From contig JAMPGQ010000018.1 of the NCBI GenBank assembly GCA_023663825.1, positions 1-34,055 on the forward strand: a DNA stretch of 34,055 bases, read 5' to 3'. Of the stretch, positions 15,985 to 34,003 are shown piece after piece. The notes beneath the pieces were generated by a model, which worked only from the letters and a program-made list of their open reading frames with translations, was not told the DNA's origin and did not search any database. The position numbers and the translations under genes are program-made. Numbering within the stretch: the first letter of the stretch is position 1; the number at the start of each line of letters is the position of its first letter. Source of the stretch: Anaeroplasma bactoclasticum (lineage in GTDB: Bacteria > Bacillota_I > Bacilli_A > Acholeplasmatales > Anaeroplasmataceae).

Positions 15985-16166
15985 TGAAAAGTTCACTAAA
16001 GCCACTACAATAATTTACATATTCCTATAAAAAATTCGGTTTTATACAGAATGTGACTTTTCTTCACATACTGAAGCACTAAGATTTAAAATAAAAATGC
16101 CTACTAACATAAACTAGGATATGTAAGTAAGCATTTTACCTTATCTTGTTTTTATTAATTTTTTTA
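15985..16166. repeat. 182-bp near-identical direct repeat, copy 1
   Basis: The segment matches 20776-20958 with two substitutions (at about 16003 and 16139) and a one-base difference in an A run, about 98% identity. It covers the last codons of the second ABC gene (shared end KLIKTR), the terminator hairpin and about 100 bp beyond. Similarity stops sharply on both sides. Small dyads inside include TGTGA/TCACA and CTTCA/TGAAG near 16053-16077. No coding capacity or consensus promoter was found in the noncoding part. Confidence 0.9.
16094..16137 (-). terminator. Terminator of triad A
   Basis: Arms of 17 nt (16094-16110 and 16121-16137) pair at 15 positions. The core is AAAATGC with GCATTTT, and on the minus strand TTTTATTTT follows. 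It starts 3 nt after the stop codon of the second ABC gene and lies within the long repeat. Confidence 0.75.
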
Positions 16167-17853
16167 ATTTGGATTTAAAAATAACGTAATTCTTCAATTC
16201 ATTTAGAAGAATCAAAAGGAATAAAGATATTCCAAAAGAAACTAAATACGTTGTAGTATCAAAACGAAAAACATATCTATTATAGTGAAAATTTCTAAAG
16301 AAGACCCATGCGAACAAATGAATTAAACCAGTTATCAAAACAATAAGTACAATTGGGGCAAAATAAAGTTTTCCCTTCAATTTATCTCTAATCTCAAGAT
16401 TGGTTTGTCCACATACTTTATAAAAAGCAACTAAGTTATAATAATAAGAAGACTGCTTGTTAACAAAAACAATATATAAAGCAATAGATAAGCTAATCAT
16501 AATTGAACAAATTGTTATTCCAAAATTCAATTCCATAGCATATTCTGCACGCATAAAGGTTTTTATTTCTTCAAGGCAATTTTTAATTGGTAGATTTAAA
16601 GCCAAGGTCTTCTTGTGATTGGTTGATAGTATGGTGTCAGATGAAAAACCACCTTCTTGATAAAACTCATATAATGCTTCTACATTCTTAGAATCATTTA
16701 CATAATAATCTAATACCAAATCATAATTTAAAATTATGACAGGCTTTTCATTTGTAATAATCTCTAGTATTTTATATTCCTCACCAAAATGACCATTATG
16801 CTCCAAAAAGGTGTTAGACACAATGACTTCATTATAGCTTGTAATTTTTTTCGATGTCTTATAATTGAAATCATAATCTATAAAACCAATTATTTTCTCA
16901 ATCAAATTTGAGTTAAAAATAAAATATGTATGCTCCTCTTCATAAATCTTTCTAAACTCGTTCTCTGTAAATTCAAATTTTTCATCTTGATTTATTTTAA
17001 AATAACCAGCAGGATAATTTTGAATATCATAAAGATTAGGAGAAATTAAAATAGAAAGACTAGCATTAAAGAAAATCATAATCAATGGAATCAACATATA
17101 AATTATGATGTTAGTAAAAGATAATGAAATTCTTTTTCTTTTTTTGTTAACAATCTCTTTTTCCTCTAATATCTCTTCAATCGGAACAAATTCATTTAAT
17201 AATAGCTTGTCATCATAAATTTCGCGATTAGATATAGTAATTATTCTATCTACATATTTCTCCGCTAAAAAGGTGTCATGAGTTACTAAAATAACTAACT
17301 TTTTCTCAGAAATTTCTTTTAGAATACTCATAATAAATTCACGATTTACAGGATCTAAATTCTCTGTAGCTTCATCTAAAATTAAAATATCATTTTTCTT
17401 TAATAAGCTTACAGCAAGGCAAACTCTTTGAGCTTCCCCAGTGGATAGGGTTGATACAACACGATTCTTATATTTTTCATTTAAATGAACCTGCTTTAAA
17501 ACTATTTCTATCTGTTCTTCTTCATTAATATTATAGATATTTAATATCTCTTTCAAATTTTCATAAACTGTCTTATCATTCAAAAGAACTTGTCTTTGAG
17601 GCATATAAGCAACCTGTTTTAAAACATGCCTAATTCTATCATTTTCTTTTTCAAAAGATAAATTTTCACCATTATAAATCAATTCACCACTATCTGATGC
17701 CTCAATACCAGACATGATATTAATCAATGTGGATTTCCCTGAACCACTCTCTCCTGATATTGCGACAAAACCATGATTATCAAAGGATAGATTAATATCT
17801 ACAAGTACTTTTTTAGTTTTAAAGGCTTTAGATATGTGCTTCAATTCAAGCAT
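16141..17853 (-). CDS. Triad A second ABC ATPase-permease fusion (MacB-like)
   Basis: This 570-aa protein has an N-terminal ATPase: Walker A GESGSGKS at 34-41, Q-loop YMPQ at 83-86, an altered signature LSTGE at 136-140, Walker B ILILDE at 156-161 and switch His191. A first helix lies near 245-268, followed by an extracellular domain of about 170 residues. Three helices follow near 443-464, 495-518 and 533-553. The segment after helix 2, FYKVCGQTNLEI, resembles the FtsX-family coupling motif. This is the order of MacB (type VII ABC). The gene follows its partner by 4 nt with GAGGTGAT as ribosome site, and the two probably form a heterodimer. The substrate is unknown. Confidence 0.85.
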   Translation of the reverse strand: MLELKHISKAFKTKKVLVDINLSFDNHGFVAISGESGSGKSTLINIMSGIEASDSGELIYNGENLSFEKENDRIRHVLKQVAYMPQRQVLLNDKTVYENLKEILNIYNINEEEQIEIVLKQVHLNEKYKNRVVSTLSTGEAQRVCLAVSLLKKNDILILDEATENLDPVNREFIMSILKEISEKKLVILVTHDTFLAEKYVDRIITISNREIYDDKLLLNEFVPIEEILEEKEIVNKKRKRISLSFTNIIIYMLIPLIMIFFNASLSILISPNLYDIQNYPAGYFKINQDEKFEFTENEFRKIYEEEHTYFIFNSNLIEKIIGFIDYDFNYKTSKKITSYNEVIVSNTFLEHNGHFGEEYKILEIITNEKPVIILNYDLVLDYYVNDSKNVEALYEFYQEGGFSSDTILSTNHKKTLALNLPIKNCLEEIKTFMRAEYAMELNFGITICSIMISLSIALYIVFVNKQSSYYYNLVAFYKVCGQTNLEIRDKLKGKLYFAPIVLIVLITGLIHLFAWVFFRNFHYNRYVFRFDTTTYLVSFGISLFLLILLNELKNYVIFKSKLKKLIKTR

Positions 17854-17857
17854 AATA

Positions 17858-19915
17858 TCACCTCAATTTTTTTCTTGGGATAAATTGCAAAAGCGATTCT
17901 ATACAAATATGCAATATTAAAGCAATACTTGCCAATATAAACCAATTCTTTAGAGTCATCCAACGTAAAGCATAATATGTTATTACAGACACATATTTAA
18001 CTTGTGCGATGCTAGCATAAATAAAAGCGTAAATCAAAATACTAATTAGTGCTAGGATTGTGCTACTTATAATTTTTGCAAGCCATAGTTTCTTCTTATT
18101 ATAGTCACATTTATTATAAAAGAAATCCCTATTTCTATTTATCTTTCTATTCATCAGTCCAATAATAAAGTATATCCCTATAATCAAAATGATTGCAGCA
18201 AGATAGCATAAGATTTTTACTTGAGTGTTAGACTTATGATAATACATAGAATAAGAAATCCCTTCATTTTTTAAATGATTAATGAAGATTTGACATTCCT
18301 TAAACGTGTTAAAGTAAAATCTTGTACAAGCAATAGCATTTTCATCTGTATATTTTTTAAATGTAGCTTCATTCATAGCTAATAGATGTTTAGAAGGCTC
18401 ACACTCTAAAATATTAGAGTATCTTTGAAAAGAATTTATATAAGTAACTGTCAAACGCTTTGCGGATGATATTTTAGAGGTAGCAATTGTATCATCAGGT
18501 AAAGTATTATCAATGACACAATTAAAGTCTCCTTTTTCATTTAACGTAAGGATATTTTCAAGACCATCATCTATATAAAAATAGAATTGACTACTTATAA
18601 CAGGTTTAGAAGAAAGATATGCTTCAAGATCTGCTTTTGAAGCATAGTAATCTAAATAAAATGAATCCATAGAATCATGAGGAGATTGGATAATACCTAC
18701 AATACTATACTCACCATATTTTTTTCCAATAAAAGATTTAAAATATTCTTGATTGGTATTATATTGTGTTTCGCCTATAGATATTACAACCTCCTTCTCT
18801 TTTTTATATATCCTTCCCGCAAGAATATCTTTTTCACTCAGAGGAGCAATTTGTAATTTATATTCTTCATTCTCATTTACATCTTCTATCATTTCATAAT
18901 ATCGCAGAAAAATATTCTCTATAGCATCTACAGCACCAAATTTCTCTTTTAATTCTACTATATCCTTAGAATAGATTGGATGACTAAAGGAAGAGTGCAC
19001 TTCTACATTATATTTTGTACCTTCTCCACAAACACCACAATGATTATCATCACTGCCCTCATAGTATACTCCACTATAAATACCAGATAAAGATTCATTA
19101 TTAATGCTTGTAACAAAGGTTCCAATCGCCAAAAAACAAGAGCATAAAAAGAATAAAAGTAAATAAGATACTGCGGTCTGAATATGTCCCTTAATTCCAG
19201 TAAGGAAGTTAAACTTAACTAGAGGAAATACTCTCGTTTTAGTTTTGAATGGAGAATTCATTATAATATCTTCATTATTTCTTACCACTTTTCTATCTAC
19301 AATCTTTCCGTTTTCAAAACGGAAAGATATATCTTGCACTCCTTCAACCTCTTCAGATTTATGAGTAATATATATTACTATTTTATTTTTAACTTCTTTT
19401 AGCATATTAACAATAATATTAGAATTTTTTTCATCTAAACTGTGTGTCGCTTCATCAAGAATCAATATAGGCTTAGTAGATAGCATCATACATCCCACAG
19501 CAACTCTTTGTGCTTCTCCACCACTCAAATCAATTATCTTTTGATTCTTTAAATTCGTTAGTTTTAGAGATGAGCATATATTTTCTATTTTTTCTTCCAC
19601 CTCAGTCTCATTATACAAATGATAACATTTTGCATATAAAGTTTGATATATTGTAAAGTTATTAATTAAAGGTTCATTTGCCTCTAAGTATTCTACATAT
19701 TTTTTCACATTAGAGGAAATATCCTTATTATCTATTTTTATACTTCCTGAATCCATTAGAATAATTCCAGCTAAGATTTTAGCAAAGGTGGATTTTCCTG
19801 AGCCACTTTCTCCTGTTATTACAACAAAACTCGGATTAGGGATTTCCAAATCCATATTAAGTTCAAAGTGCTCTTCTTTAGTTTCATATTTTTTATATAA
19901 ATTAATAAAAAGCAT
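17858..19915 (-). CDS. Triad A first ABC ATPase-permease fusion (MacB-like)
   Basis: The 685-aa protein carries Walker A GESGSGKS at 35-42, signature LSGGE at 130-134, Walker B LILDE at 151-155 and the switch His in VIYITHK. The Q-loop Gln is missing: the aligned text is YLEANEPLI. Helix 1 is near residues 245-268, then an extracellular domain of almost 300 residues with a CGVC pair, then three helices near 570-593, 612-638 and 655-676. An AGGAGA ribosome site precedes the start. It lies downstream of the exported protein gene beyond a strong hairpin. Architecture and pairing suggest one half of a heterodimeric mechanotransmission-type transporter. Confidence 0.85.
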   Translation of the reverse strand: MLFINLYKKYETKEEHFELNMDLEIPNPSFVVITGESGSGKSTFAKILAGIILMDSGSIKIDNKDISSNVKKYVEYLEANEPLINNFTIYQTLYAKCYHLYNETEVEEKIENICSSLKLTNLKNQKIIDLSGGEAQRVAVGCMMLSTKPILILDEATHSLDEKNSNIIVNMLKEVKNKIVIYITHKSEEVEGVQDISFRFENGKIVDRKVVRNNEDIIMNSPFKTKTRVFPLVKFNFLTGIKGHIQTAVSYLLLFFLCSCFLAIGTFVTSINNESLSGIYSGVYYEGSDDNHCGVCGEGTKYNVEVHSSFSHPIYSKDIVELKEKFGAVDAIENIFLRYYEMIEDVNENEEYKLQIAPLSEKDILAGRIYKKEKEVVISIGETQYNTNQEYFKSFIGKKYGEYSIVGIIQSPHDSMDSFYLDYYASKADLEAYLSSKPVISSQFYFYIDDGLENILTLNEKGDFNCVIDNTLPDDTIATSKISSAKRLTVTYINSFQRYSNILECEPSKHLLAMNEATFKKYTDENAIACTRFYFNTFKECQIFINHLKNEGISYSMYYHKSNTQVKILCYLAAIILIIGIYFIIGLMNRKINRNRDFFYNKCDYNKKKLWLAKIISSTILALISILIYAFIYASIAQVKYVSVITYYALRWMTLKNWFILASIALILHICIESLLQFIPRKKLR

Positions 19916-20016
19916 AATTTTCTTCTCCTATGTGTTAATTATTCATAAATCTAGTTTGAGTTAAAGCAATAATAAACCACACATTGTTTTTAGGTAAGGT
20001 TTATAAATTTTCACAT

Positions 20017-20056
20017 AATTAAGCCACATTTTCAAAATCAAAAATGTGGCTTAATT
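20017..20056 (-). terminator. Strong hairpin between exported-protein and transporter genes, triad A
   Basis: Perfect 16-bp arms (20017-20032, 20041-20056; core AAGCCACATTTT) surround an 8-nt loop. On the minus strand the hairpin is followed by ATGTGAAAATT, so it has only a weak T tract. It could cause partial termination or block 3' decay, and so favour the exported protein over the transporter. Confidence 0.65.
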
Positions 20057-20073
20057 CATTAGAAACCTTAGTA

Positions 20074-20643
20074 TTATAAATTCTTCATTTCTACTTTCGC
20101 TTTAATATAAGCTGTTTTACCATTCCATTGATAAGGATTGTAAATCATTATTCTATATTTATGATTGGCTTGAATAGCATATCTGCTTTCAGAATTGGTT
20201 GATACAGAAAATACCTTGCTCGTAGGTATTCCATCTGGATTTGTATAGTTAGTATCGTCTTTGCCACAGAACATTAAATAGATATCTGATTTTAAATTAT
20301 CATTTACAAAAATTGAAGAGCCTGGCTTTCTTAGTTCAGGAATCCATTTTTCATTTACATACTCTTGCAAAACAAAATATACAGAGTTACCACTGATAGA
20401 ACTTATATTAACTTGAACATATTCAAAGTTTTCCTTATATTCAAATGGTTCTGACTGATAATTATCTTTATCAGCAACACTAACTCCTTCTTCTCCTCCC
20501 AAAACTATAGTAGTTTCACTTGTAGTATCCAACATTAAAGGACTTGCTTGTGATTCAAAATCAGTAGCAGCGTTACTATTTATTCCTAAAAATAAAAATA
20601 ACCCTACTACAAAAAATAATAGTAAAGTTTTAATCTTTTTCAT
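20074..20643 (-). CDS. Triad A exported protein of unknown function
   Basis: The 189-aa protein starts with a clear Sec signal peptide (MKKIKTLLLFFVVGLFLFLG then INSNAA, cleavage probably after residue 25). The mature part is about 164 aa and looks all-beta. Compared with its paralog at 24883-25449 it keeps the blocks IYLMFCGKD with a single Cys, TNY..PDG, KVFSVST, and the C-terminal QWNGKTAY then KNL. No lipobox, LPxTG anchor or catalytic motif is seen. The start has AGGAGGG upstream and a near-consensus promoter. As first gene of the triad it may be the cargo, a toxin or bacteriocin, or a receptor for the transporter. I do not recognise the family. Confidence 0.8.
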   Translation of the reverse strand: MKKIKTLLLFFVVGLFLFLGINSNAATDFESQASPLMLDTTSETTIVLGGEEGVSVADKDNYQSEPFEYKENFEYVQVNISSISGNSVYFVLQEYVNEKWIPELRKPGSSIFVNDNLKSDIYLMFCGKDDTNYTNPDGIPTSKVFSVSTNSESRYAIQANHKYRIMIYNPYQWNGKTAYIKAKVEMKNL

Positions 20644-20684
20644 ATATTTCCCTCCTCGTATGCTTCTTTACTCATCTTGTAATA

Positions 20685-20713
20685 TATATATCACAGTTTT
20701 CAATATGTGTCAA
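20685..20713 (-). promoter_or_regulatory. SigA promoter of triad A
   Basis: TTGACA (20708-20713) and TATATA (20685-20690) are spaced by 17 nt on the minus strand, about 40 nt upstream of the exported-protein start. Confidence 0.75.
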
Positions 20714-20775: not shown

Positions 20776-20958
20776 TGAAAAGTTCACTAAAGCTACTACA
20801 ATAATTTACATATTCCTATAAAAAAATTCGGTTTTATACAGAATGTGACTTTTCTTCACATACTGAAGCACTAAGATTTAAAATAAAAATGCCTACTAAC
20901 ATAAACTAGGATATGTAAGTAAGCATTTTATCTTATCTTGTTTTTATTAATTTTTTTA
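20776..20958. repeat. 183-bp near-identical direct repeat, copy 2
   Basis: This is the partner of 15985-16166 in the same orientation, 4.79 kb away. It includes the last codons of the triad B second ABC gene, its terminator and about 100 bp beyond, which here reach to 63 nt upstream of the triad A promoter. The adjoining coding sequence differs much more between the triads, so the repeat is conserved or homogenised beyond its surroundings. Confidence 0.9.
20886..20929 (-). terminator. Terminator of triad B
   Basis: The same hairpin as at 16094-16137 (arms 20886-20902 and 20913-20929), 3 nt after the stop codon of the triad B second ABC gene, with TTTTATTTT following on the minus strand. Confidence 0.75.
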
Positions 20959-22681
20959 GTTTAGATTTAAAAATCAAAAAATTCATTAATTCGTTTAACA
21001 CAATTAAAAGAACTAAACTACAAGTAAAGGAAACCCAATATGTAGTAGCATCAAATCGAAATAGTTCATGATTATAGCCTATTTTTTTAAATATTAAAAA
21101 AACTGAAATAGAAACGATGCCACTACATAAAATTATAAATATTAAAGGAAAAATATAAAAATCCATTTTCAATTTTCCTCGAATTTCTAAATTTGTTTTC
21201 CCACACACTCTATAAAATGCAACGATTTTATAGTAATAAGGGGCTTGTTTGATTGCCAATACTATAAAGAGAGAAAGACTTAATAAAATCATAAGTGCAC
21301 AAATAGTTGTTCCGAAGCTTAACTCTAAAGTAACGCTCTTATAATAATTTGATATAGCCTCTTCATATTCATTTACAATTGGCAAATCCAAGGATAAGGT
21401 TTTTTTCTCATCTTTAGTGATTATTGTAGTCTTTGAAAACAAGTCTTCTTGAAAAGCCTTGCAGACCAATTCAAAGCTCATAGACTCATTTGGAAAAAAA
21501 TGTTTCCATGTCAGCTCATAATTTATAATAAGAACGGGTTTTTCTGTCTTTATTGTTTCAATTACAGAATATTTTTCCATAAATGTCGGATTTAACTCTA
21601 AGAAGGTATCTGAAACTATAAATTCATCAAATGATGCTATGGTCTTGGAAATTTTGTAATTAAAATCATAATCAATAAAGCCTTTTAGAAATTGTCCAAA
21701 CAAGCATACATCGTTAAATAGGAAATATGTGTTTTCTTCTTCATAAATTTTTTTTAACTCTTCCTGTGTAAAAAAAGTATCTTCAGCATAAATAGCGCCA
21801 TCCTTTTTTATAGGGTCTTTTTTAAAATGGCTTAAAGGGCAATTGGATTCAGAAGATATATTTGGCTTAATCCAAATCGATATTTGAGCAATCAAAAAGA
21901 TAAATATTAGTGGAATTAATAGATAAAATAAAATATTTTTCAATGGTAAATTTAATCTTTTTTTTCTTCTCCCTTTTATTTGTTCTTCTTCATTACTCTC
22001 TTTTATAAAAGGAATTCGGGAGTTATCAAGCACCACATCAGAATAAATTTTTCGATTTGAAATTGTAATCAATCGATCTACATATTTTTCAGCTAAGCTC
22101 GTATCATGAGTCACTAAAATAACAAGTCTTGTTTTTGATATTTCCTTTAATATATTTAGTATGAGCTCTCGATTTACTATATCTAAATTTTCTGTTGCTT
22201 CATCTAATATTAAAAGATTTGCTCTTTTTAACAAACTCATTGCAATACAAACTCTTTGGGCCTCTCCCGTGGAAAGTGTTGAAACAATACGATTTTTATA
22301 TGTTTCATTCAAATGGACCTGATTTAAAATAAAATCAATTTGACTTTCATCTGTAAGATTATATAGATTTAATATTTCCTTTAAATTCTCATAAACTGTT
22401 TTGTTATATAAAAGAATCTGACTTTGAGGCATATAGGAAACATATTTTAATATAGATTTTATTCTTTCTGACTCTTTTTCGAAAATCATATTTTTTCCAT
22501 CAAAAATATATTCTCCAGAATCAGCACTTTCTATTCCAGCAATAATATTAATTAATGTTGTTTTGCCACTACCACTTTCTCCAGTTATAGCAATAAAGCC
22601 CTTGGATTCAAAAATTAAATTAATATCCTCAAGTACTTTTTTATTTTTAAATTTTTTATAGATATGTTTTAATTCCAACAT
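20933..22681 (-). CDS. Triad B second ABC ATPase-permease fusion (MacB-like)
   Basis: This 582-aa paralog of 16141-17853 has Walker A GESGSGKT, Q-loop YMPQ, the same altered signature LSTGE, Walker B LLILDE and switch VTHDT. The ATPase half is highly conserved with its paralog, while the extracellular domain after helix 1 (about 250-270) is much less so. Three C-terminal helices follow, with FYRVCGKTNLEI in the FtsX-like coupling position, and both proteins end KLKKLIKTR. Its start lies 5 nt after the first ABC gene with AAGGTGAT as ribosome site. It is probably the obligate partner of 22687-24753. Confidence 0.85.
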   Translation of the reverse strand: MLELKHIYKKFKNKKVLEDINLIFESKGFIAITGESGSGKTTLINIIAGIESADSGEYIFDGKNMIFEKESERIKSILKYVSYMPQSQILLYNKTVYENLKEILNLYNLTDESQIDFILNQVHLNETYKNRIVSTLSTGEAQRVCIAMSLLKRANLLILDEATENLDIVNRELILNILKEISKTRLVILVTHDTSLAEKYVDRLITISNRKIYSDVVLDNSRIPFIKESNEEEQIKGRRKKRLNLPLKNILFYLLIPLIFIFLIAQISIWIKPNISSESNCPLSHFKKDPIKKDGAIYAEDTFFTQEELKKIYEEENTYFLFNDVCLFGQFLKGFIDYDFNYKISKTIASFDEFIVSDTFLELNPTFMEKYSVIETIKTEKPVLIINYELTWKHFFPNESMSFELVCKAFQEDLFSKTTIITKDEKKTLSLDLPIVNEYEEAISNYYKSVTLELSFGTTICALMILLSLSLFIVLAIKQAPYYYKIVAFYRVCGKTNLEIRGKLKMDFYIFPLIFIILCSGIVSISVFLIFKKIGYNHELFRFDATTYWVSFTCSLVLLIVLNELMNFLIFKSKLKKLIKTR

Positions 22682-22686
22682 TTACA

Positions 22687-24753
22687 TCACCTTAATCTTT
22701 TTCTAGGAATAGATTGCAAAATCATTTCAATACCAATGTGTAAGATAAGAGCAAGTCCTAATAAAATAAACCAATTCGCAACTGTCATCCACCTTAATCC
22801 ATAATACATAATTACTGAAGTATATTTAACTTGAGAAAGTAAAGCATAGATAACGGCATAAATGCCTAGGCTAATTAATGCCAAAATCGTACTACTCATA
22901 ATTTTTGCAAACCAAAGTTTTTTCTTGTTGTAATTGCATTTACTATAAAACAAATCTCTATTCCTATTCAATCTTCTATTGATTATTCCAACTATTACAT
23001 AAACCACTATAATCAATATAAACGCACCTATATAACTTAACAATTGGATAGTTTGATTATATTGATAATATGTGAATGTAAAGGAAATGTTTTCACTTTT
23101 TAAATGCTTAATAAAATTTTCGCATTCTTCAAAAGTATTGAAATAAAAATATGTACAAGGAATCATTGTTTCATCAGCAAATTTATCATAGGTGGATTGA
23201 TTCATCGATAATATGTGTTCTGAAGGGATACAATTTAAATTTTCCGCACAGCTATAGAATTGAGGATAATTATAAACAATTTGAAAACTGTTAGAATCTG
23301 TAATTTTAGAGGTTGCAATTGTGTCATTGGATAAAGAATTATCAATAACACAATTTAAAAAATCATCTCTTTCAAAAGAGAAAACTTCTTTTTTGACATT
23401 TACGTCATAAGCATAGAACAAAAATGAATCTATTTGTGAATTATCTATAGAAGCTTTAAAGCTTTCAAAGTCTTCTTTAGAAGCATAAAATACATTTCTT
23501 ATGCTATTATCATGTGGGGTTTGAACAATACCTACTATTGTATACTCCCCATATCGTTTTCCAATAAAAGATTTAAAATAATTTTGTTCTGTATAAAACT
23601 TTGTCTCATTTATTGCTAATACAGCTTCTTTTTTATTTCTATACAATCTTCCGACCAATACGTCTTTTTTTTGAAATGCACCAAGATGTAAATTATACAA
23701 ACCATTTTCATCTGTCAACATTTGATATGATGGGCTATAATGATTTTCTATAGCACCAACTGGTTTAAAGCGTATCTTTAATTCCTCTATCTCATCTTGA
23801 TAAATTTTACGATTATAGGAAGAATGAACTTCCACATAATATCTTGTAGCATCCTTACATACGCCATATGAATCATGCCTAGAGTCTTCACTTCCAGCAT
23901 ATTCCGTTTTAGGACTACATAACACCTCTTCATTATTAATACTCGTACAGAAGGTACCAATAGCAAAAAAACAAGAGCACAAAAAAAATAAAATCAAATA
24001 CGAAATAGAAGTTTGCAGATGTCCTCTAATTCCTGTGAAAAAACTATTTTTCACAATAGAAAAAACTTTTGTTTTATTATAAGATGGCACTTCAACAAAT
24101 TGATCATAAATTTGATTCATCTTTTTTGTTTCTGTTATTCTCCCTTTATCAAAATGGCAATAAATATCTCCTATTCCCTCTACTTCATCAACCTTATGAG
24201 TAATATAAATCACCATTTTATTTTTGATTTCTTTTAAAATATTAATAATAATTGCAGCATTATTTTCATCTAAACTATGCGTTGCTTCATCTAAAACAAG
24301 AATTGGTTTAGATGATAACAGCATACAGCCAACTGCAACTCTTTGAGATTCGCCTCCACTCAAATCGATAATCTTTTGATCTTTCAAATTTGTCAATTTC
24401 AAAGAAGAACAAATGCTTTCAATTTTTTCTTTCACTTCATTTTCATCATATAAATGAAAACACTTAGCATATAAAGTCTGATATACCGTAAAGTTATCAA
24501 TTAGAGGTTCATTAGCTTCTAAATATTCTACATAACTTTTTAAATTAGATGTAATATCTTCACCGTTTAGCTTTATAATTCCATGATTCATTGAAATTAG
24601 CCCAGCTAAAATTTTTGCAAAGGTTGATTTTCCTGCACCACTTTCTCCAGTTATAACAACAAAACTTTGAGAAGGAATTTTTAAGTCTATATTTAATTCA
24701 AATTGTGATTCCTTAGTCTTATATTTTTTATATAAATCTAAAATCTCAAGCAT
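22687..24753 (-). CDS. Triad B first ABC ATPase-permease fusion (MacB-like)
   Basis: This 688-aa paralog of 17858-19915 has Walker A GESGAGKS, signature LSGGE, Walker B LVLDE and switch YITHK. As in its paralog, the Q-loop Gln is absent (YLEANEPLI). Residues 1-200 are strongly conserved between the two. The extracellular region (about 270-560) diverges more but keeps VEVHSS, FIGKRYGEYTIVGI..PHD and the N-terminal Cys-containing loop. Helices lie near 245-268 and in three C-terminal positions, ending IPRKRLR against IPRKKLR. GAGGTGATC precedes the start. A paired conserved defect in both copies suggests that asymmetry of the two ATP sites is functional. Confidence 0.85.
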   Translation of the reverse strand: MLEILDLYKKYKTKESQFELNIDLKIPSQSFVVITGESGAGKSTFAKILAGLISMNHGIIKLNGEDITSNLKSYVEYLEANEPLIDNFTVYQTLYAKCFHLYDENEVKEKIESICSSLKLTNLKDQKIIDLSGGESQRVAVGCMLLSSKPILVLDEATHSLDENNAAIIINILKEIKNKMVIYITHKVDEVEGIGDIYCHFDKGRITETKKMNQIYDQFVEVPSYNKTKVFSIVKNSFFTGIRGHLQTSISYLILFFLCSCFFAIGTFCTSINNEEVLCSPKTEYAGSEDSRHDSYGVCKDATRYYVEVHSSYNRKIYQDEIEELKIRFKPVGAIENHYSPSYQMLTDENGLYNLHLGAFQKKDVLVGRLYRNKKEAVLAINETKFYTEQNYFKSFIGKRYGEYTIVGIVQTPHDNSIRNVFYASKEDFESFKASIDNSQIDSFLFYAYDVNVKKEVFSFERDDFLNCVIDNSLSNDTIATSKITDSNSFQIVYNYPQFYSCAENLNCIPSEHILSMNQSTYDKFADETMIPCTYFYFNTFEECENFIKHLKSENISFTFTYYQYNQTIQLLSYIGAFILIIVVYVIVGIINRRLNRNRDLFYSKCNYNKKKLWFAKIMSSTILALISLGIYAVIYALLSQVKYTSVIMYYGLRWMTVANWFILLGLALILHIGIEMILQSIPRKRLR

Positions 24754-24781
24754 AATTGATCACCTCGTATCAGTAAATTAA

Positions 24782-24814
24782 CAAACCACACGAATTTGAA
24801 ATACATGTGGTTTG
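24782..24814 (-). terminator. Hairpin between exported-protein and transporter genes, triad B
   Basis: CAAACCACA (24782-24790) and TGTGGTTTG (24806-24814) are perfect 9-bp arms with a 15-nt loop, followed on the minus strand by TTAATTT. It occupies the same place as the 20017-20056 hairpin of triad A although its sequence differs, so the structure rather than the sequence is kept. Confidence 0.55.
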
Positions 24815-24882
24815 AAAATCATTTACATTTATACTTTTTGCGAATAATAAATAAATAAATATCTCGAATCGCAACAAATAAT

Positions 24883-25449
24883 TTATAAGTTTTTAACTTT
24901 CAATGTTGCGTTCACATATGCAGTCTTGCCATTCCATTGCTTTTTATTATGGACTACTATCCTATAAAGTTGATTTGCAAGTATGGCATTTGAATTATCA
25001 CTTGTTGATACAGACAAAACTTTTTTAGTGGTCACACCATCTGGTGTTACATAATTAGTTTTATCTTTACCACAAAACATCAAGTAGATATCTGTCTTTA
25101 AATCATCATTTGCAAAAATAGTATTAGCAGAATTTACTACATCTTCAGGAAGCCATTTAGTTCCATCATACTTTTGTAAAGTAAACCAAAGTGAATTACC
25201 CTTAATTGTACTTATATAGACTTGAGCATAAGCATAATCCTGACTACATTTAAATGGTTCAGAATAAAAACTTGTGCCATCTGATATGGCAGTCTTATCA
25301 GTCACTAATGTTATAGTTGAAAACCTCGTAGGATTAGTAGTTAATGGACTTACTGTTTCTTCTGATGTCATTGTAGCATTACTATTTATGCCTAAAAATA
25401 AAAATAACCCTACTATAAAAATCACTAGTAAAGTTCTAATTTTCTTCAT
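24883..25449 (-). CDS. Triad B exported protein of unknown function
   Basis: The 188-aa paralog of the 20074-20643 protein begins MKKIRTLLVIFIVGLFLFLG with cleavage probably after NSNA. It keeps YSEPFKC, LKTDIYLMFCGKD, TNYVTPDGVTTKKVLSVST and QWNGKTAYV. The mature part is beta-rich and, apart from one extra Cys (FKCSQ), has only the shared FCGKD Cys. I chose the ATG at 25447-25449 because a perfect AAGGAGGTG lies at 25456-25464; the longer frame would start within the promoter. Homology with triad A extends through the whole protein, most strongly in the signal peptide and C-terminal third. Confidence 0.82.
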   Translation of the reverse strand: MKKIRTLLVIFIVGLFLFLGINSNATMTSEETVSPLTTNPTRFSTITLVTDKTAISDGTSFYSEPFKCSQDYAYAQVYISTIKGNSLWFTLQKYDGTKWLPEDVVNSANTIFANDDLKTDIYLMFCGKDKTNYVTPDGVTTKKVLSVSTSDNSNAILANQLYRIVVHNKKQWNGKTAYVNATLKVKNL

Positions 25450-25480
25450 ATTCTTCACCTCCTTCTTTACTTCAAGATAA

Positions 25481-25509
25481 ATTATAGCATGACTTATACT
25501 CAAATACAA
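25481..25509 (-). promoter_or_regulatory. SigA promoter of triad B
   Basis: TTGTAT (25504-25509) and a perfect TATAAT (25481-25486) with 17-nt spacing on the minus strand, in the same relative place as the triad A promoter. Confidence 0.7.
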
Positions 25510-25592
25510 GAATTTGATTTAAAAAAATTGGCAAAGTTTTTCATTTTTTTACAAAAGTATCTATTTTTTAGTTTTTTGTTTTTTTGAAAATA

Positions 25593-28405: not shown

Positions 28406-28927
28406 CTATTTAGCTGTTGTTTCAATTACAGCATAATTGCCATCATTACGTAAATAAATAACATTAGTCTTACGAGTTTCTTTATCCAAATAAATAAAGA
28501 AATCATGTCCTAATAACTCCATTTGATCAATTGCTTCCTCACGAGTCATAGGCTCTAGGTCAACATTCTTATCACGAACAATTCTTTCTTCTTCAGGCTT
28601 AGCATCTACAGTACGAATTCCTTTTTTACCCATTTTATCCTTCATACGATCGTTGTAGTGTCTTACCTGTCTTACGAGCTTATCGATAGCTCCATCAATA
28701 GCGGCATAGATATCCACCTCTTCTACTTCTGCACGAAGTATGATATTTTTGGCTGGAATTGTTATCTCAACCTTATGGAATGCCTTATACACCTTACATA
28801 CTACACGGGCTGCTAGATTCTCATAATCTGGTAAAAGCCCCTCTAGCTTCGTAAGTTTTTTTAAAGCATACTCCTTATTTGCATCTGATGGTGTAAACCC
28901 ATTCTTTCCAACAATTTCTACCTTCAT
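28406..28927 (-). CDS. hpf: Long-form ribosome hibernation promoting factor
   Basis: The 173-aa protein has the N-terminal S30AE fold (MKVEIVGKNGFTPSDANKEYALKKL, VEITIPAKNIILRAEVEEVDIYAAIDGAIDKL). A linker follows, and then the C-terminal dimerisation domain typical of the long form (PMTREEAIDQMELLGHDFFIYLDKETRKTNVIYLRNDGNYAVIE). It pairs 70S ribosomes into inactive 100S dimers in stationary phase. It has its own consensus promoter. Position before secA matches the common Bacillota order comFC-hpf-secA. Confidence 0.96.
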   Translation of the reverse strand: MKVEIVGKNGFTPSDANKEYALKKLTKLEGLLPDYENLAARVVCKVYKAFHKVEITIPAKNIILRAEVEEVDIYAAIDGAIDKLVRQVRHYNDRMKDKMGKKGIRTVDAKPEEERIVRDKNVDLEPMTREEAIDQMELLGHDFFIYLDKETRKTNVIYLRNDGNYAVIETTAK

Positions 28928-28985: not shown

Positions 28986-29186
28986 TTATAACTTATACAC
29001 ATTTTGAGCTTGTAACCCTTTTTCACCAACAACTAGGTCAAACTCAACCAACTGGCCTTCATTCAAAGTTTTAAAGCCATCATCTAAGATACTACTATAA
29101 TGAACAAAAATGTCATCGTAGTTTTCCTTAATAATAAAGCCATAGCCCTTTTCATTATTAAACCACTTCACCTTGCCTACTAGCAT
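28986..29186 (-). CDS. Cold-shock protein (CspA family)
   Basis: The 66-aa OB-fold protein has RNP1 KGYGFI and RNP2 DIFVHYSSI and the family start [11 protein letters not shown]. It is an RNA chaperone that binds single-stranded nucleic acid. The start has GGGAGG upstream (within 29196-29203). It lies between the zinc-ribbon gene and hpf, an insertion relative to the usual comFC-hpf order. Confidence 0.95.
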
Positions 29187-29269: not shown

Positions 29270-29644
29270 CTATTTTTTCAGTTCACAACAAACCAATAAT
29301 ATCGATTTTTTTTGCGTGTCTGAAAGAAAGCTTAAAAGCTCTATGTTAAAATCACTTACTTTAAAAGAATCTAAATACACAAAAAAATACTCCTCATATC
29401 TTTGTAGAAAATAGGCTACACTCTTAGATATCTCTATTTGATAAGCATCTAAGTTTAGTTTGTAGATTTTCTTAAAAAGAGATACAACAAATAAACTAAA
29501 GTTTTCTAAAGGTATCTCTTCAAAAGAAAAAGATAAAGGATAAGCATTTCTACAAGAATTACATATGTAATATTTTTTTGTCTCAAAAAGACTTAGAAAA
29601 TTCCTTTTCACATAAAACTTTTTCTTACAGTTATAACAGACCAT
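29270..29644 (-). CDS. Zinc-ribbon protein, possible degenerate ComFC
   Basis: The 124-aa protein opens with a four-Cys zinc ribbon (CYNC at residues 3-6 and CNSC about 25 residues on). A helical middle part follows (FKKIYKLNLDAYQIEISKSVAYFLQRYEEYF). The end, FFVYLDSFKVSDFNIELLSFL then KKSILLVCC, has no phosphoribosyltransferase PRPP loop. ComFC competence proteins start with such a zinc ribbon and usually sit just before hpf and secA, so this may be a shrunken relic or derivative. I chose the ATG at 29642-29644 because GAGGTG precedes it; the longer frame adds 37 unsupported residues. It also follows triad C by about 130 nt and could serve that system instead. Confidence 0.6.
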   Translation of the reverse strand: MVCYNCKKKFYVKRNFLSLFETKKYYICNSCRNAYPLSFSFEEIPLENFSLFVVSLFKKIYKLNLDAYQIEISKSVAYFLQRYEEYFFVYLDSFKVSDFNIELLSFLSDTQKKSILLVCCELKK

Positions 29645-29774
29645 TTTTTTCACCTCATATAAATAATTACCAAAAAAGATCTGTTTTTTATATAAAAAGA
29701 AAAAAAGATGCTTAAAAACACATTTTTGTATCTTAAAACATCTTACTACAAACATTTTTTAGACATTTGCTTTA

Positions 29775-31367
29775 TTATTTATTTAATTTTCTTTGAATAT
29801 ATATCAAGTAAAGTAGATTACTAATAAAAAGAAATAACAATATGGTTGTTAAAATCATCCAAATTGAAGGATGCAAAATAGAACTCCAAGGGAAAATGAC
29901 TCTTTTCTCATATTGAGTAACTAAATAAGCCACTAAGAAATAGCCACCTATTCCTAAAAACAAATACTTTACCAAATCTCCAAGAATTTTTGAAATTCCT
30001 AATTCAATATTAGAGTTTCCATATTGTTTCAAAAAAATCAACTTTTCTTTTTCATTTCTAACCTGAATTATAGTATTAAAACATATAAAAACAATACTCA
30101 ATGCACTTAGAACTATAATTATAGTAGTAAATAAATTTTCATTTATATTATTGTAAATTGTAGACAAAAGACCTGTATTCTCAATATACACTTTCTTTTC
30201 TGAAAAGTATTCTTGCAATTTCTCATCATTTAAATAAGCCATTCTGAAGGAAGTTTCTTCTAGGGTATCTCCTTCTATTAAAAAAGTTTGATATGACTTA
30301 TTTACTAAGTCTTGTTCAATAGGATAATCTATGATTCCTTGTACATAATATTTTTCATTTTTAAAAGTAAATGTTTTACTAAGACAATCTGCATTATTTT
30401 CAAATACATAACAGTTTTTATAGCCATCTAAAGGATTTGCTTCTTCTTTCAAAGAAAAATCAAAGTGTTTATAATAAGTAACATAATAAAAAGGATTCAA
30501 TTCCATTTTCTCTTGAATAGAAAGTTCTATTCCATAATACATAGATAAGGATTTATCTTCTACATCATTTTTTAACTCTATGTAATGCAAATGATTTTTT
30601 TCATAATATCCATATGCAACTTCATATGAATTTGCATTCCTAATCGTTAATGCAAAAAGGATTGAAGTAAATAATAGAAAATAAACGAAAAAGGAAGCAA
30701 TTGATAAAAGCTTAAACTGAGATACAAAGAAAAATAAAGATGGTTTAAAGGTTCTTCTTTTAAATTCTACTTCTGCGTTTTCTTTATGAATCGATAATTC
30801 ATAAGAATCTAGATTTAAAACAGTTCCACCCAAATCCTCATTATGATCAACATATATTACCATATGACTTTTGGAATATTCAATAATGCAAGCTTTTATT
30901 TGATCTAGATTCTCTTGATCTAAAAAATTAGAAAACTCATCTAATAGTAGAATACTAGGCTCTATTGTAAAAGCTAAAGTAAGCTCTACAAGTTTTTTTT
31001 GACCACCAGATAATTCTTTTACTGGAACAGTTAAAATATTACTTATTAATTTTTCAATATAAGGAGTATTCTTTTTAAGACCGAGAGCTTTAATATTTTG
31101 TAGAACAGTTAAATTTTCTAAAAGAAAAATATCTTGATGAGCTAAGATAACATTTTTTTGTAATGAGCTCTTTGTTTGTTTTAAATCATTAATTAAAATA
31201 TTTCCTTTAAATGACGTTGATGCAGAAAGGATTTTTAATAGAGTAGACTTCCCACTACCATTACCACCTTCTATTTTAACTAGATTATCTTCTAGGACAA
31301 GATTTAATTGATTAAATACACAGTTTTCCTGATAATATTTTTCAATATCACAAAATTCTATCTTCAT
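29775..31367 (-). CDS. Triad C second ABC ATPase-permease fusion (MacB-like)
   Basis: The 530-aa protein has Walker A GGNGSGKS (about 34-41), Q-loop LAHQD, signature LSGGQ, Walker B ILLLDE and switch His in VDHNE. Helix 1 lies near residues 215-240, then an extracellular domain of about 160 residues, then three helices in the last 130 residues. The coupling segment LIFLKQYGNSNIELGISKIL has the FtsX-family pattern. Its ATG overlaps the stop of the upstream gene by four bases (ATGA), so translation is coupled. AGGAGA lies at 31373-31378. It has the same plan as the A and B proteins but is divergent, with a canonical signature. Confidence 0.82.
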   Translation of the reverse strand: MKIEFCDIEKYYQENCVFNQLNLVLEDNLVKIEGGNGSGKSTLLKILSASTSFKGNILINDLKQTKSSLQKNVILAHQDIFLLENLTVLQNIKALGLKKNTPYIEKLISNILTVPVKELSGGQKKLVELTLAFTIEPSILLLDEFSNFLDQENLDQIKACIIEYSKSHMVIYVDHNEDLGGTVLNLDSYELSIHKENAEVEFKRRTFKPSLFFFVSQFKLLSIASFFVYFLLFTSILFALTIRNANSYEVAYGYYEKNHLHYIELKNDVEDKSLSMYYGIELSIQEKMELNPFYYVTYYKHFDFSLKEEANPLDGYKNCYVFENNADCLSKTFTFKNEKYYVQGIIDYPIEQDLVNKSYQTFLIEGDTLEETSFRMAYLNDEKLQEYFSEKKVYIENTGLLSTIYNNINENLFTTIIIVLSALSIVFICFNTIIQVRNEKEKLIFLKQYGNSNIELGISKILGDLVKYLFLGIGGYFLVAYLVTQYEKRVIFPWSSILHPSIWMILTTILLFLFISNLLYLIYIQRKLNK

Positions 31368-33028
31368 ATTTTTCTCCTATTTAAACTATATTCAAATCCT
31401 AATAACAGCAAAGATAAAACCAAGGATGCTAAAAGAAGTTCAAAATGAACTGGAGTAGCTAATATATTCAGCTGTCTTAGTTCAAAAGAAGTATAATGAT
31501 AAATCCAAAAATAAATTATGATCATACCGATAATGCTACTAAATATCAAAGATATAGTAGTTAAAATTATTTCTCTTAAGAGTAGGATACTTGATAAAAA
31601 AGGAGACGGAGCGCCAAAAATTCTTAGTTTTTCATCTAAATATGCTTTATTTTTTCTTTGATAAATTTGAACTAATTCTATATATAGATATATTCCTACA
31701 AATATAATCAAAGCAGCTATGCAAAATATTTTAGGAAAAAGTACACTTTGAAATAAGCTTGCATAGTTAGAATTTGAATATGCAAAATGGTAATCTGTTG
31801 GAAGGCTTTCTTGAGATGAAATTACAAAATTTAGTTTTTTAAGAAAATAGTCATCGAAAGTATCAATATAAGAGCTAGGAAAAACAATATAAGAACATAA
31901 CTCCTCTTTTAATTGCATATCATTAAAGAGATTTTGCTTTGTAGATTCTCTTCGCAAATTATCTATATGTCTTTCTTCATTATCCAAATCTATGATTAAA
32001 CTATAAAGAGATATATCCTCTTCTTGCTTGAATAAAAAATCACTAACAATAACATCTGTTATAGCTTTTGAAAAATAAACATTTTTTATCTGTTTTAAAA
32101 TAATTTCTTTATCCTTTTCAAATCTCATAGACCTCATATATTTAAAACCAACCATATCAAAGAAAGAATTCTCATTGCTATATAATTCATATACACTTTC
32201 TAAAGAATCATTACTTTCTATATAGCTATATTTCATTATATTTTTAGTATATATTTCTTCCATTTGTTCTTTTGAAAAGGTAAACATTTGTATCAGTAAA
32301 ACACTTAATAATAGTAAAGCAAATGTTATTGACATTTTAAAGAAAAAGATAAATTTATCTTCTAACAATATTTTAATAAAAATTTTAAACGGAACCTTAG
32401 TCTTGCTACTTTTATTATAATTTTGCTCAATTTCCATAATTTCATTATTTAAAGACAATTGTGTATTCATTTCAATGATTTGATCCGCATATTCTTCTAC
32501 TTGCTCATCATGAGAAACACATATAATAAGTTTATCTTTTTTGAATTGATTTATAAAAGAAAATAACTCTTGTTTTCTATTTTTATCTAAGGAAACTGTG
32601 GGTTCATCCAAAATAAAGCAATCAAAATCAAAAAATAATCCACGCTCTAAATTTGCACTTTTTTGTTGACCCCCAGATAACTTTTTTATCTTTTTAGTTT
32701 TTGGAAATTCTTTTAAATCTTGGCTTAAAAATTCATTGTTTAATTTTAAATTTTCTTCTAGAGTTAATTCATTAAAGAGAACATTGAATTGTGGAACATA
32801 GCATACTCTTTTAAATAAATCGTTACCTAAGACCTTTATATCACTATTTTGAAATAAGATTTGACCATTATATGGCAACAGGCCAAGAATGGTTCTTAAT
32901 AATGTGGTTTTACCACTCCCATTAGGTCCTTTTATCAAAATACAACCAGTAAAGGGAAAACTTAAATTTTCTATATTTAAAAATACCTTATTTTTATATT
33001 TTTGAGTAACATTTTTTAAAACGAACAA
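31364..33028 (-). CDS. Triad C first ABC ATPase-permease fusion (MacB-like)
   Basis: The 554-aa protein has Walker A GPNGSGKT at 34-41, Q-loop YVPQ at 77-80, signature LSGGQ at 117-121, Walker B CFILDE at 137-142 and switch VSHDE. Only 37 residues separate the Q-loop from the signature, so the helical subdomain is unusually short. Helix 1 is near 228-250, then a large extracellular domain, then three helices with DEKLRIFGAPSPFLSSILLLREI in the FtsX coupling position. I favour a TTG start at 33026-33028, because GAGGTG ends 6 nt before it and overlaps the alternative GTG at 33037. The product then starts FVLKNVTQKY like its relatives. Confidence 0.8.
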   Translation of the reverse strand: MFVLKNVTQKYKNKVFLNIENLSFPFTGCILIKGPNGSGKTTLLRTILGLLPYNGQILFQNSDIKVLGNDLFKRVCYVPQFNVLFNELTLEENLKLNNEFLSQDLKEFPKTKKIKKLSGGQQKSANLERGLFFDFDCFILDEPTVSLDKNRKQELFSFINQFKKDKLIICVSHDEQVEEYADQIIEMNTQLSLNNEIMEIEQNYNKSSKTKVPFKIFIKILLEDKFIFFFKMSITFALLLLSVLLIQMFTFSKEQMEEIYTKNIMKYSYIESNDSLESVYELYSNENSFFDMVGFKYMRSMRFEKDKEIILKQIKNVYFSKAITDVIVSDFLFKQEEDISLYSLIIDLDNEERHIDNLRRESTKQNLFNDMQLKEELCSYIVFPSSYIDTFDDYFLKKLNFVISSQESLPTDYHFAYSNSNYASLFQSVLFPKIFCIAALIIFVGIYLYIELVQIYQRKNKAYLDEKLRIFGAPSPFLSSILLLREIILTTISLIFSSIIGMIIIYFWIYHYTSFELRQLNILATPVHFELLLASLVLSLLLLGFEYSLNRRKI

Positions 33029-33051
33029 ACAAAACACCTCTTTTTTTTTAG

Positions 33052-33070
33052 TGTATATGCTCTTAAAATA
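33052..33070 (+). repeat. 19-bp inverted repeat, distal copy
   Basis: TGTATATGCTCTTAAAATA is the exact reverse complement of 33951-33969. This copy lies between the exported-protein stop codon and the first transporter gene of triad C, 24 nt upstream of its start. The match ends precisely at 19 bp on both sides. Confidence 0.85.
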
Positions 33071-33086
33071 TATATTAAATATTTTA

Positions 33087-33932
33087 TTAAAGTTTTATAT
33101 TATAACTATAATTTTGTTTCAATTTTAATTTTTTGTTTACTTCATTTGATGTACTTGTACTATAGTTTTCCCAACCAGCATCATCTATATAATATTCCGC
33201 TCTATAATCCCAATAAAATGTCAAGTTCTTACCATCATAGGATTGTGCGTTTTTAATACAAAAATAAAAACTAGCCATATGTGTATTTGATCCTACATAA
33301 ACACCATCATTACAACTTGTATATCTTGTATAATTATATGAAACAGATATTTTTTTTGAATTATCACATTTTACAACCCATTCAACATCCTTATGATCTT
33401 CTGTTATAGAATAGTTTGGTGTCCAATATCCATTTTCCGAATCATAGGTAAAACCAATTGTTTCACTCCAAGAGCCATTTTCATTTTTTGGAGAATAGCC
33501 TACACCAATAATAGGAACTTGAGAACCATTGAGTGTTGGTTGTTCTATAAATATTTCTTGATAAATTGCCTTGTTTCTAACACGAGCATTTCGTGCAACA
33601 CTAATTTCTTTATCGTATGGATAAGTATTGCAAAATGATGCTAAAAAGATATATAAGGTATCATGTTCATCATCATAATACTGATATGCTCCTTGCCAAG
33701 TACTAAAATCTGCACAGTCATGTAATCCCTTATTATGCGCAGTCCAATAATTTTTATTATATTGTACTGTATAATTTTTCTGGTCACTTTCATGTATTAC
33801 TTCCATTTCAGAAGGAATATCAAATCCCATCATTGTTGCGATGTTGGTGGCATTTACATTTAAGTTTATTGATAAAATAATTGCCAAAACCAATATAAAA
33901 ATAATGCTTGTTTTTTTCACTATATATTTCAT
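33087..33932 (-). CDS. Triad C exported protein of unknown function
   Basis: The 281-aa protein starts with a Sec signal (MKYIVKKTSIIFILVLAIIL, likely cleavage after NVNA). The mature part is rich in Tyr, Trp and Asn and appears beta-structured: YWTAHNKG, TWQGAYQYYDD, IPIIGVGYSPKNENG, ISVSYNYTRYTS and LTFYWDYRAEYYIDDAGW. It has five Cys (CADF, FCNTY, KCDN, SCND, FCIKN). No recognisable domain, lipobox or sorting signal is present, and similarity to the A and B exported proteins is not evident apart from layout. I chose the ATG at 33930-33932 with AAGGAGA at 33938-33944. The gene is enclosed by a perfect 19-bp inverted repeat. Confidence 0.78.
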   Translation of the reverse strand: MKYIVKKTSIIFILVLAIILSINLNVNATNIATMMGFDIPSEMEVIHESDQKNYTVQYNKNYWTAHNKGLHDCADFSTWQGAYQYYDDEHDTLYIFLASFCNTYPYDKEISVARNARVRNKAIYQEIFIEQPTLNGSQVPIIGVGYSPKNENGSWSETIGFTYDSENGYWTPNYSITEDHKDVEWVVKCDNSKKISVSYNYTRYTSCNDGVYVGSNTHMASFYFCIKNAQSYDGKNLTFYWDYRAEYYIDDAGWENYSTSTSNEVNKKLKLKQNYSYNIKL

Positions 33933-33950
33933 AATTATCTCCTTCCCAAT

Positions 33951-33969
33951 TATTTTAAGAGCATATACA
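33951..33969 (-). repeat. 19-bp inverted repeat, promoter-proximal copy
   Basis: This copy is the exact inverse of 33052-33070 and lies in the 5' leader of the exported-protein gene, between a candidate -10 box (33976-33981) and the ribosome site (33938-33944). The two copies enclose 880 bp carrying the whole gene with its ribosome site but not the promoter. Confidence 0.85.
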
Positions 33970-33975
33970 ATCATT

Positions 33976-34003
33976 ATTTTACATCTTTTTATTTTTTTTT
34001 CAA
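33976..34003 (-). promoter_or_regulatory. Weak SigA-type promoter candidate of triad C
   Basis: TTGAAA (33998-34003) and TAAAAT (33976-33981) with 16-nt spacing on the minus strand, about 45 nt upstream of the exported-protein start. The region is A/T rich, so chance matches are common. Nothing else could be assigned to 34004-34055. Confidence 0.4.

Follow-up and report, generated by a model that had tools for sequence, protein, structure and literature searches.

What is the function of a gene unit that codes for an exported protein and two MacB-like ATP-binding cassette (ABC) fusions, and that occurs three times around csp-hpf-secA in the 34,055-nucleotide stretch of Anaeroplasma bactoclasticum DNA analyzed here (the window)? 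The window is an entire contig (G000:C9) of the 2.06-Mb, 96%-complete genome of an uncultured bacterium. A first-pass annotation had reported the three units, and this was confirmed: each named gene is an open reading frame of the minus strand with the coordinates given below, the gene order exported protein, fusion, fusion is common to the three, and one unit (triad C) lies upstream of csp-hpf-secA and two (triads A and B) downstream. We found that an exported protein with one or more dedicated fusions of a nucleotide-binding domain (NBD) with a MacB-type membrane part is a recurrent, patchy kind of locus, and that the triads exemplify one variant of a wider theme specific to the lineage. The reading that we favor, tentatively and a little short of an even chance, is that each unit consists of a Sec-exported antagonist and a dedicated type VII ABC transporter that serves for self-protection. 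We infer both the antagonism and the immunity, and the function is a reasoned guess; a bacteriocin with self-immunity, as proposed by the first-pass annotation, is compatible with the data. The genes of triads A and B are the following:

24883..25449, minus strand: triad A exported protein, 188 amino acids (aa); signal peptide ending in ...NSNA; the listed open reading frame (ORF) starts at TTG 25509
22687..24753, minus strand: triad A fusion 1, 688 aa; NBD, first transmembrane segment (TM1), extracellular domain, TM2-4; signature LSGGESQ
20933..22681, minus strand: triad A fusion 2, 582 aa; domain order as in fusion 1; signature LSTGEAQ
20074..20643, minus strand: triad B exported protein, 189 aa
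17858..19915, minus strand: triad B fusion 1, 685 aa
16141..17853, minus strand: triad B fusion 2, 570 aa

Triad A spans 20933-25449 and triad B spans 16141-20643, with 4-5 bp between the paired fusion genes in both. A third copy of the cassette, D, is present in another contig (G000:C56; L026:4211-8685). BLAST identities among A, B, and D are 48-56% for the exported proteins, 48-58% for the membrane parts of fusion 1, and 43-50% for the membrane parts of fusion 2; judged by these values, A, B, and D are paralogous, diverged copies of one cassette. Within triad A, the similarity between fusion 1 and fusion 2 is confined to the ATPase. Signal peptides were recognized on the exported proteins by eye and by hydropathy, and those of triads A, B, and C have a single N-terminal hydrophobic segment and no further anchor in the hydropathy profile.

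The MacB order with its own ATPase, which the first-pass annotation had assigned to every fusion, was borne out in 6/6 window fusions. Each has an N-terminal ABC_tran domain with Walker A, signature, and Walker B motifs, followed in the hydropathy profile by a single hydrophobic region, an extended loop, and three or four segments toward the C terminus, that is, NBD, TM1, a large extracellular domain, and TM2-4. The ABC signature is LSGGE in fusion 1 of all three copies (A, B, and D) versus LSTGE in all three copies of fusion 2, an asymmetry of the kind seen in heterodimers. Because the paired fusions are unlike, closely spaced, and asymmetric in their signatures, we infer, with this indirect support, that fusion 1 and fusion 2 of A, B, and D would assemble as a heterodimer. 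The predicted structure of fusion 1 (predicted local distance difference test, pLDDT, of 50) was too poor to confirm the fold. No Pfam permease model was above its cut-off in the six fusions, PF02687 (FtsX/MacB permease) was not among the matches listed for them, and their membrane and extracellular parts matched no NCBIfam model above cut-off. Fusions in contigs C12, C14, and C38 of the same genome pass PF02687.

To describe the same kind of locus in relatives, 36 stretches were picked from ATPase matches with long frames favored, a selection that was not exhaustive. The query ATPase was matched in 11/11 genus genomes, and the stretches sampled ten of these (all except G002). At least one fusion with an N-terminal ATPase was found in each of the ten and a side-by-side fusion pair in nine; in the tenth genome (G007), a pair is merely suggested by a frame cut at a contig end. 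The first-pass annotation had regarded separate ATPase and permease genes as usual and a two-fusion pairing as unusual, and neither holds for this lineage. The genus stretches show a conserved pair (~700 + 880 aa), usually without an exported neighbor, and also variable units, many of them preceded by an ORF with a signal peptide. Such an ORF was directly upstream of 17 of the 30 variable fusion clusters (7/10 in this genome and 10/20 in congeners), against 18 of 196 other genes (Fisher p 1e-8); for the conserved pairs the count was 1/11. The rule used for counting is crude, and loci that had been fetched through their exported gene were dropped from the fusion count only; with these five loci (six fusion clusters, four of them positive) the count is 21/36.

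The linkage is clearest in family IV, in which an exported protein of ~250-300 aa is accompanied by one fusion (two in G065) and often by a lipoprotein. A profile seeded with four members already known beside fusions matched 11/160 order genomes. In ten of the eleven, which represent two families of the order, the exported gene and a MacB-type fusion belong to one run of genes of like orientation; in the eleventh (G150) the exported gene is at a contig end and was not re-found at E 0.01 in an ORF scan, so that it could not be judged. Leaving out the four seeds, 6/6 judgeable loci are fusion-linked, including that of G006, which had first been fetched through its fusion. This linkage upholds, beyond the window, the earlier claim that an exported protein and a dedicated MacB-type (type VII) transporter form a unit, and the scattering of these genes in related genomes, named at that time as the outcome that would speak against it, was not seen in the ten loci that can be judged. 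The generalization to relatives strengthens the original observation.

A lipoprotein gene, with the lipobox recognized by eye, is present in 7/10 fusion-linked family IV units, and an eighth (G062) has at the lipoprotein place a 153-aa gene whose called frame lacks a signal peptide. In contig C16 of this genome, two tandem 170-aa lipoprotein ORFs with identical starts (L029:6588-7100 and 7155-7667) lie between the family IV exported gene and the fusion, either by duplication or as an assembly artefact. The family IV unit of G065 (L150:3616-9256) has tandem fusions of 833 and 843 aa and is a possible intermediate between the single-fusion and triad layouts.

Family III is a further triad, present in two species, with an exported protein of 225 aa and fusions of 687/695 aa (G005) or 692/697 aa (G003) whose mutual identity within one locus is 48.5% and 50%. 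Its profile matched 5/160 order genomes: the two seed triads, two loci with an ATPase fragment (G001 and G013), and one false match (G145), which was dropped as a MutS-like gene by translation. At L153:6419-6998 (G001, itself a fragment) and L154:7055-8527 (G013), family III exported homologues adjoin the ATPase fragment, and both loci are decayed units. Other exported proteins are found in families V (C14, L117), VI (C12), and VII (L115). The exported families have no clear mutual sequence relation, except for a weak likeness of the triad C protein to family IV. Two further layouts were observed. In G004 (L115:3085-8467) the order is fusion (765 aa), exported protein (281 aa), fusion (740 aa), and in contig C38 of this genome (L032:158-7735) a D-Ala-D-Ala carboxypeptidase-like ORF, a 1221-aa exported protein with GLUG motifs, and a fusion stand in a row. 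The conserved NBD-MacB pair was seen at L118-L129, L028:3255-8152, L048, and L049; outside the genus its members are 735-750 and 800-806 aa long.

Triad C (29775-33974) was considered as a further copy of the A/B cassette:

33087..33932, minus strand: triad C exported protein; signal peptide ending in ...NVNA; ORF listed from 33974, with 33932 the likely ATG
31364..33037, minus strand: triad C first fusion, 557 aa
29775..31367, minus strand: triad C second fusion, 530 aa; 4-bp overlap with the first fusion
29270..29755, minus strand: zinc-ribbon protein, 161 aa; 19 bp downstream of triad C

This was rejected, as the exported protein has no BLAST match to that of triad A and the fusions resemble those of A mainly in the ATPase. 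The implication of the first-pass annotation that A, B, and C represent one system is not supported. The triad C exported protein may be akin to family IV, which is suggestive but unproven (BLAST E 0.036; hhalign 12%, P 0.0023, the best of 36 pairs). Its own search of the 160 order genomes returned itself and two weak N-terminal matches only. Since the window is a whole contig, triad C starts ~80 bp from a contig end. At the other end of the unit, it is uncertain whether the zinc-ribbon protein belongs to it; this protein matches TIGR04104 at 24.3 bits, under the cut-off of 45.

The regions around the exported genes of the A/B/D cassette contain a conserved leader and predicted RNA hairpins:

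25375..25549, minus strand: triad A leader block, from -100 to +74 around the start codon (A of ATG = 0); 168/175 positions identical to copy D
24782..24814, minus strand: triad A hairpin in the gap 3' of the exported gene; CAAACCACA...TGTGGTTTG; gap z -3.2
20017..20056, minus strand: triad B hairpin, 17-bp, in the gap 3' of the exported gene; core AAGCCACA...TGTGGCTT; gap z -4.9

By eye, the leader block comprises a TTGTAT-N17-TATAAT promoter-like stretch, an AGGAGG ribosome site, and the signal-peptide codons, and its downstream edge coincides with the predicted signal-peptidase site. This block of promoter and signal peptide is 96% identical between A and D, while the mature proteins have diverged. 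Most nearby 60-base windows have 47-67% identity, but two stand out, one with 78% at -120 to -60 (across the block edge) and one with 80% at +360 to +420. Triad B lacks the promoter stretch of A and D in the alignment. The RNA of the gap between the exported gene and fusion 1 folds better than its shuffles in A, in B (where the folded piece omits the last 14 bases of the gap), and in D (z -3.8). The gap of A has a second, weaker hairpin closer to the stop codon of the exported gene. B and D have the stem core AAGCCACA/TGTGGCTT in common and A has AAACCACA/TGTGGTTT, a difference that would be consistent with a paired change. The gap at C12 has a z of -2.5. From the predicted hairpins in A, B, and D it would follow that the exported protein is made in excess.

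Is this layout that of a known system? The first-pass annotation knew of none, and literature searches found no account of it, which is not proof of absence. Among named layouts the lactococcin 972 cluster (lcn972-orf2-orf3, scbABC), not mentioned in that annotation, comes nearest, and the window genes fail its family models. In that cluster a Sec-exported beta-sandwich comes first, followed by a large membrane protein and an ABC ATPase, and in A, B, C, and D the exported gene similarly stands beside membrane and ATPase parts, here fused. The exported proteins of A, B, and C did not match TIGR01653 (NCBIfam, E up to 1), and the membrane parts of the six fusions did not match TIGR01654 (E up to 10). 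Profile comparison of fusion 2 with the N half of TIGR01654 gave 66%, and 18% with a re-cut set. TIGR03608, the lactococcin 972 ABC subfamily, was the best NCBIfam model for three of the six fusions (those at 16141, 17858, and 20933, with 158, 112, and 154 bits) and the second for that at 22687 (104 bits), all under the cut-off of 254.85; the triad C fusions scored 57 and 81 bits. By analogy, the triads would be like lactococcin 972 clusters in their working; by these tests they are not members, as they fail the models for the exported protein, the membrane protein, and the ATPase alike.

A difference from lactococcin 972 is that the two halves are encoded here as distinct proteins, each carrying an ATPase. 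The TIGR01654-like proteins that we collected (L080-L091) have two long loops by hydropathy, and their N half aligned with the non-overlapping C half at 90.9% over 91 columns; they look internally duplicated, with two unlike MacB-like halves of the kind that a heterodimer would have. Because of this resemblance, the triad could be an unfused version of the lactococcin 972 arrangement with one ATPase per half, an architectural analogy and not demonstrated descent. For Lcn972, a putative ABC transporter for immunity is ascribed to the two genes downstream of the bacteriocin gene (PMC4055356), and an article of 2024 states that experimental data on the B and C gene products of lactococcin 972 loci are lacking (PMC11796350).

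How might such a unit work? According to the antagonist reading, the small beta-rich protein would exit via Sec, and the RNA hairpin 3' of its stop codon would keep it in excess over the transporter. The two fusions, translated together, would form a heterodimer with two joined ATPases, whose cycle would mechanically move the large extracellular domains. This movement may strip the exported protein from, or keep it off, the membrane or wall precursors of the producer, and because of this action the ABC pair would confer self-immunity; alternatively, within the same reading, the pair may release the exported protein. In sister loci a single fusion, probably as a homodimer, would perform the same role, and the lipoprotein may be a LanI-like second immunity factor. 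Several unrelated exported proteins of the lineage would thus ride the same transporter chassis.

We favor the antagonist reading because the family IV exported genes adjoin a fusion in ten of eleven genomes, and because unrelated exported families and a patchy distribution among species are found, as in antagonist arsenals. We also counted for it the decayed remnants in G001 and G013, the family IV lipoproteins, the conserved leader with a diverged mature protein in A versus D, the A/B/D hairpins, TIGR03608 as the best sub-cut-off match of three fusions, and the excess of signal-peptide ORFs upstream of variable fusion clusters. Two parallels point the same way. Lactococcin 972-like bacteriocins are beta-sandwiches exported without a dedicated transporter (PMC11796350, in the passages cited), and MacB-type systems are tied to antimicrobial-peptide protection or handling (YknXYZ and SDP, BceAB, AS-48H) in the section consulted of a review in which the functions of YknZ and AS-48H carry question marks (PMC5985334).

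A wider form of the antagonist reading, which we hold to be possible rather than probable, is a modular arsenal. Unrelated Sec-exported families would be wired to one or two NBD-MacB fusions, often with a lipoprotein, the type VII machine (homodimer or heterodimer) would be a general chassis, for immunity or release, that accepts one antagonist after another, and A, B, and D would represent a newcomer restricted to the lineage, in which the promoter-leader module is conserved and the mature proteins have diverged.

Several results weigh against antagonists of this kind. The exported proteins of the window match no known bacteriocin or toxin family in Pfam or NCBIfam, profile searches of the PDB found no credible relative, for the A/B exported protein among others, and the predicted fold of the triad A protein is generic and of low confidence. 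The window proteins are 188-281 aa long, against 92-142 aa for lactococcin 972-type precursors in the loci of relatives. Divergence is about even throughout the A/B/D cassette, the exported part being no faster, and a signal-peptide protein immediately upstream is lacking in 13 of the 30 variable fusion clusters. No clear hairpin is found in the gaps of triad C (z -1.6), family III (z -0.3 and -1.4), or two members of family IV (z -0.7 and +0.3). In the streptococcin B locus, too, immunity is presumed for the two downstream genes, and strains with scbBC alone were inhibited, which the authors attribute to absent expression (PMC11796350, in the passages cited).

The strongest rival to the antagonist reading, unlikely in our estimation, is mechanotransmission as in FtsEX-EnvC or YbbAP-TesA. 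The exported protein would then be a stable extracellular partner that performs envelope work upon ATPase movement, such as wall remodelling or lipid or carbohydrate handling, and the tight gene linkage fits this, as would the resemblance of the triad A model to carbohydrate-binding modules (CBM) and GOLD or P-domains. Partners of the FtsEX/YbbAP type are, as far as is known, conserved core genes, whereas in this lineage unrelated exported proteins are exchanged on similar transporters and most sampled species lack them; moreover, no enzyme family was above cut-off in the scanned exported proteins (window and families III-VII), and the hairpin suggests an unequal dose. LolCDE extracts lipoproteins from the membrane, and the next rival, which we consider distinctly improbable, is a comparable pump that would extract a surface or colonization protein (adhesin, matrix, or S-layer-like) after Sec and release it. 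Its appeal lies in the exported gene directly upstream, the lipoproteins of family IV, and the C38 and L100 units, which couple a fusion to long secreted proteins; but the A, B, and C exported proteins have no further anchor in the hydropathy profile and should therefore be set free by Sec and signal peptidase without other help.

It is very improbable that the fusions are general peptide-resistance or sensing transporters with exported genes as chance neighbors. Since MacB-type fusions are abundant in the genus and 18 of 196 other genes also have an exported ORF upstream, some such neighbors are expected; the excess in variable clusters (17/30), the family IV linkage across two families of the order, and the presence of the whole cassette in three copies argue against chance as the explanation. 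In favor of the mechanotransmission rival, there are documented examples of type VII machines that work with a dedicated partner outside the cytoplasm, FtsEX being one and YbbAP-TesA (PMC12646458) another.

The likeness to these partner systems is that of a type VII transporter with a dedicated extracytoplasmic protein, and the difference is that the exported proteins here are non-enzymes by the models tried and vary among species. MacB and other NBD-first type VII proteins have in common with our fusions the N-terminal ATPase, TM1, large extracellular domain, and TM2-4; unlike MacB, two dissimilar subunits per locus and an exported protein are found here. Inspection of the ORF list revealed no MacA-type adaptor gene adjoining the triads, and the exported proteins match no adaptor family in Pfam or NCBIfam. 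Family IV joins an exported product, a lipoprotein, and an ABC protein, as does lantibiotic immunity by LanI and LanFEG; in contrast to that system, its product is a protein of 250-300 aa and its ABC protein a MacB-type fusion, and no modification genes were noticed adjoining the exported gene.

If the antagonist reading is true, genomes of this little-studied lineage hold many unrecognized secreted antagonists that were missed by the family models tried, and the linked NBD-MacB fusion is a handle for finding them. It would also bear on a question stated in PMC11796350, the role of the genes for the membrane protein and the ATPase in lactococcin 972-type loci, because the comparable parts are here separable, duplicated subunits.

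The exported proteins were compared further at the levels of family and fold. Pfam and NCBIfam gave nothing above cut-off for those of A, B, and C or for the scanned members of families III-VII (the exported proteins L097, L103, L116, L110, and L152 of families III and IV were outside the Pfam scan). The triad A protein was modelled as a jelly-roll beta-sandwich (pLDDT 64). Foldseek gave 1501 weak matches, none at E 0.001; the best VIA match was an insecticidal-toxin subunit (Z 9.0), followed by GOLD, P-domain, and CBM folds at Z ~7-8.5. We read these predicted similarities as those of a generic jelly roll and not as kinship.

The A/B/D family has a narrow distribution. Its fusion 1 profile found three copies, in this genome alone, among 160 order genomes, four further matches in 395 class genomes, all four at E 0.0009 or weaker, and one in 363 phylum genomes; none of the matches elsewhere in these samples was confident. 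The weak matches in G214 and G417 are members of MacB-type pairs (735 + 800 and 748 + 806 aa) with no exported protein adjoining. The fusion 2 membrane part found just the three copies among 60 relatives. At E 0.05 the exported-protein profile matched 32 further genomes of the 395 (best E 2.5e-4), weakly and mostly within the first 100 residues including the signal peptide, and these matches were treated as noise. The best of them, in G423, covers residues 1-176 inside a 470-aa frame, with no fusion within the 3.5-kb stretch examined.

How the membrane parts relate to one another was addressed by profile comparison. Those of fusion sets III-VI and the conserved pair are related by this measure: 13 of the 15 set pairs scored 94-99.6%, the alignments of seven pairs extending over 338 to 457 columns, and the remaining two, both involving set VI, scored 48% and 12%. 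It is uncertain whether A/B/D and C can be linked to other fusion sets, and their hhalign values shift with the sequence set and order used. Fusion 1 of A/B/D gave 92% with the first member of the conserved pair in a small set and 9% and 28% in a larger one, and 2%, 73%, and 80% with the second member. BLAST of fusion 1 against the first pair member of G417 gave E 8e-4 (A), 3e-5 (B), and 0.009 (D). Fusion 2 reached 82% over 26 columns with family IV and 60% with family VI. For triad C, the first fusion gave 19% or 74% with the first member of the conserved pair, and the second fusion had a maximum of 46%.

A plasmid or phage origin of the triads was rejected, as no match was found for fusion 1 and the exported protein of triad A in the plasmid search, for the fusion 1 profile in viral contigs (the sole profile tried there), or for six proteins in PHROGs (no family at E < 0.03). 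A defence-system reading was also rejected, since the PADLOC matches fall within the generic ATPase. A scan of genome contigs returned ATPase matches only.

Between triad C and triad A lie three genes named from their translations, with no family search:

25639-28206, minus strand: secA
28406-28927, minus strand: hpf
28986-29186, minus strand: csp

Elsewhere in the window, a 94-aa ORF at 1780-2064 (minus strand) overlaps a weak ABC ATPase match (C9:1996-2205, E 5e-6) and may be a remnant of another MacB-type fusion. At 5265-7533 (minus strand), two sporulation-type sigma factors and a SpoIIGA-like gene, read from translations with no family search, suggest a spore-forming lineage.

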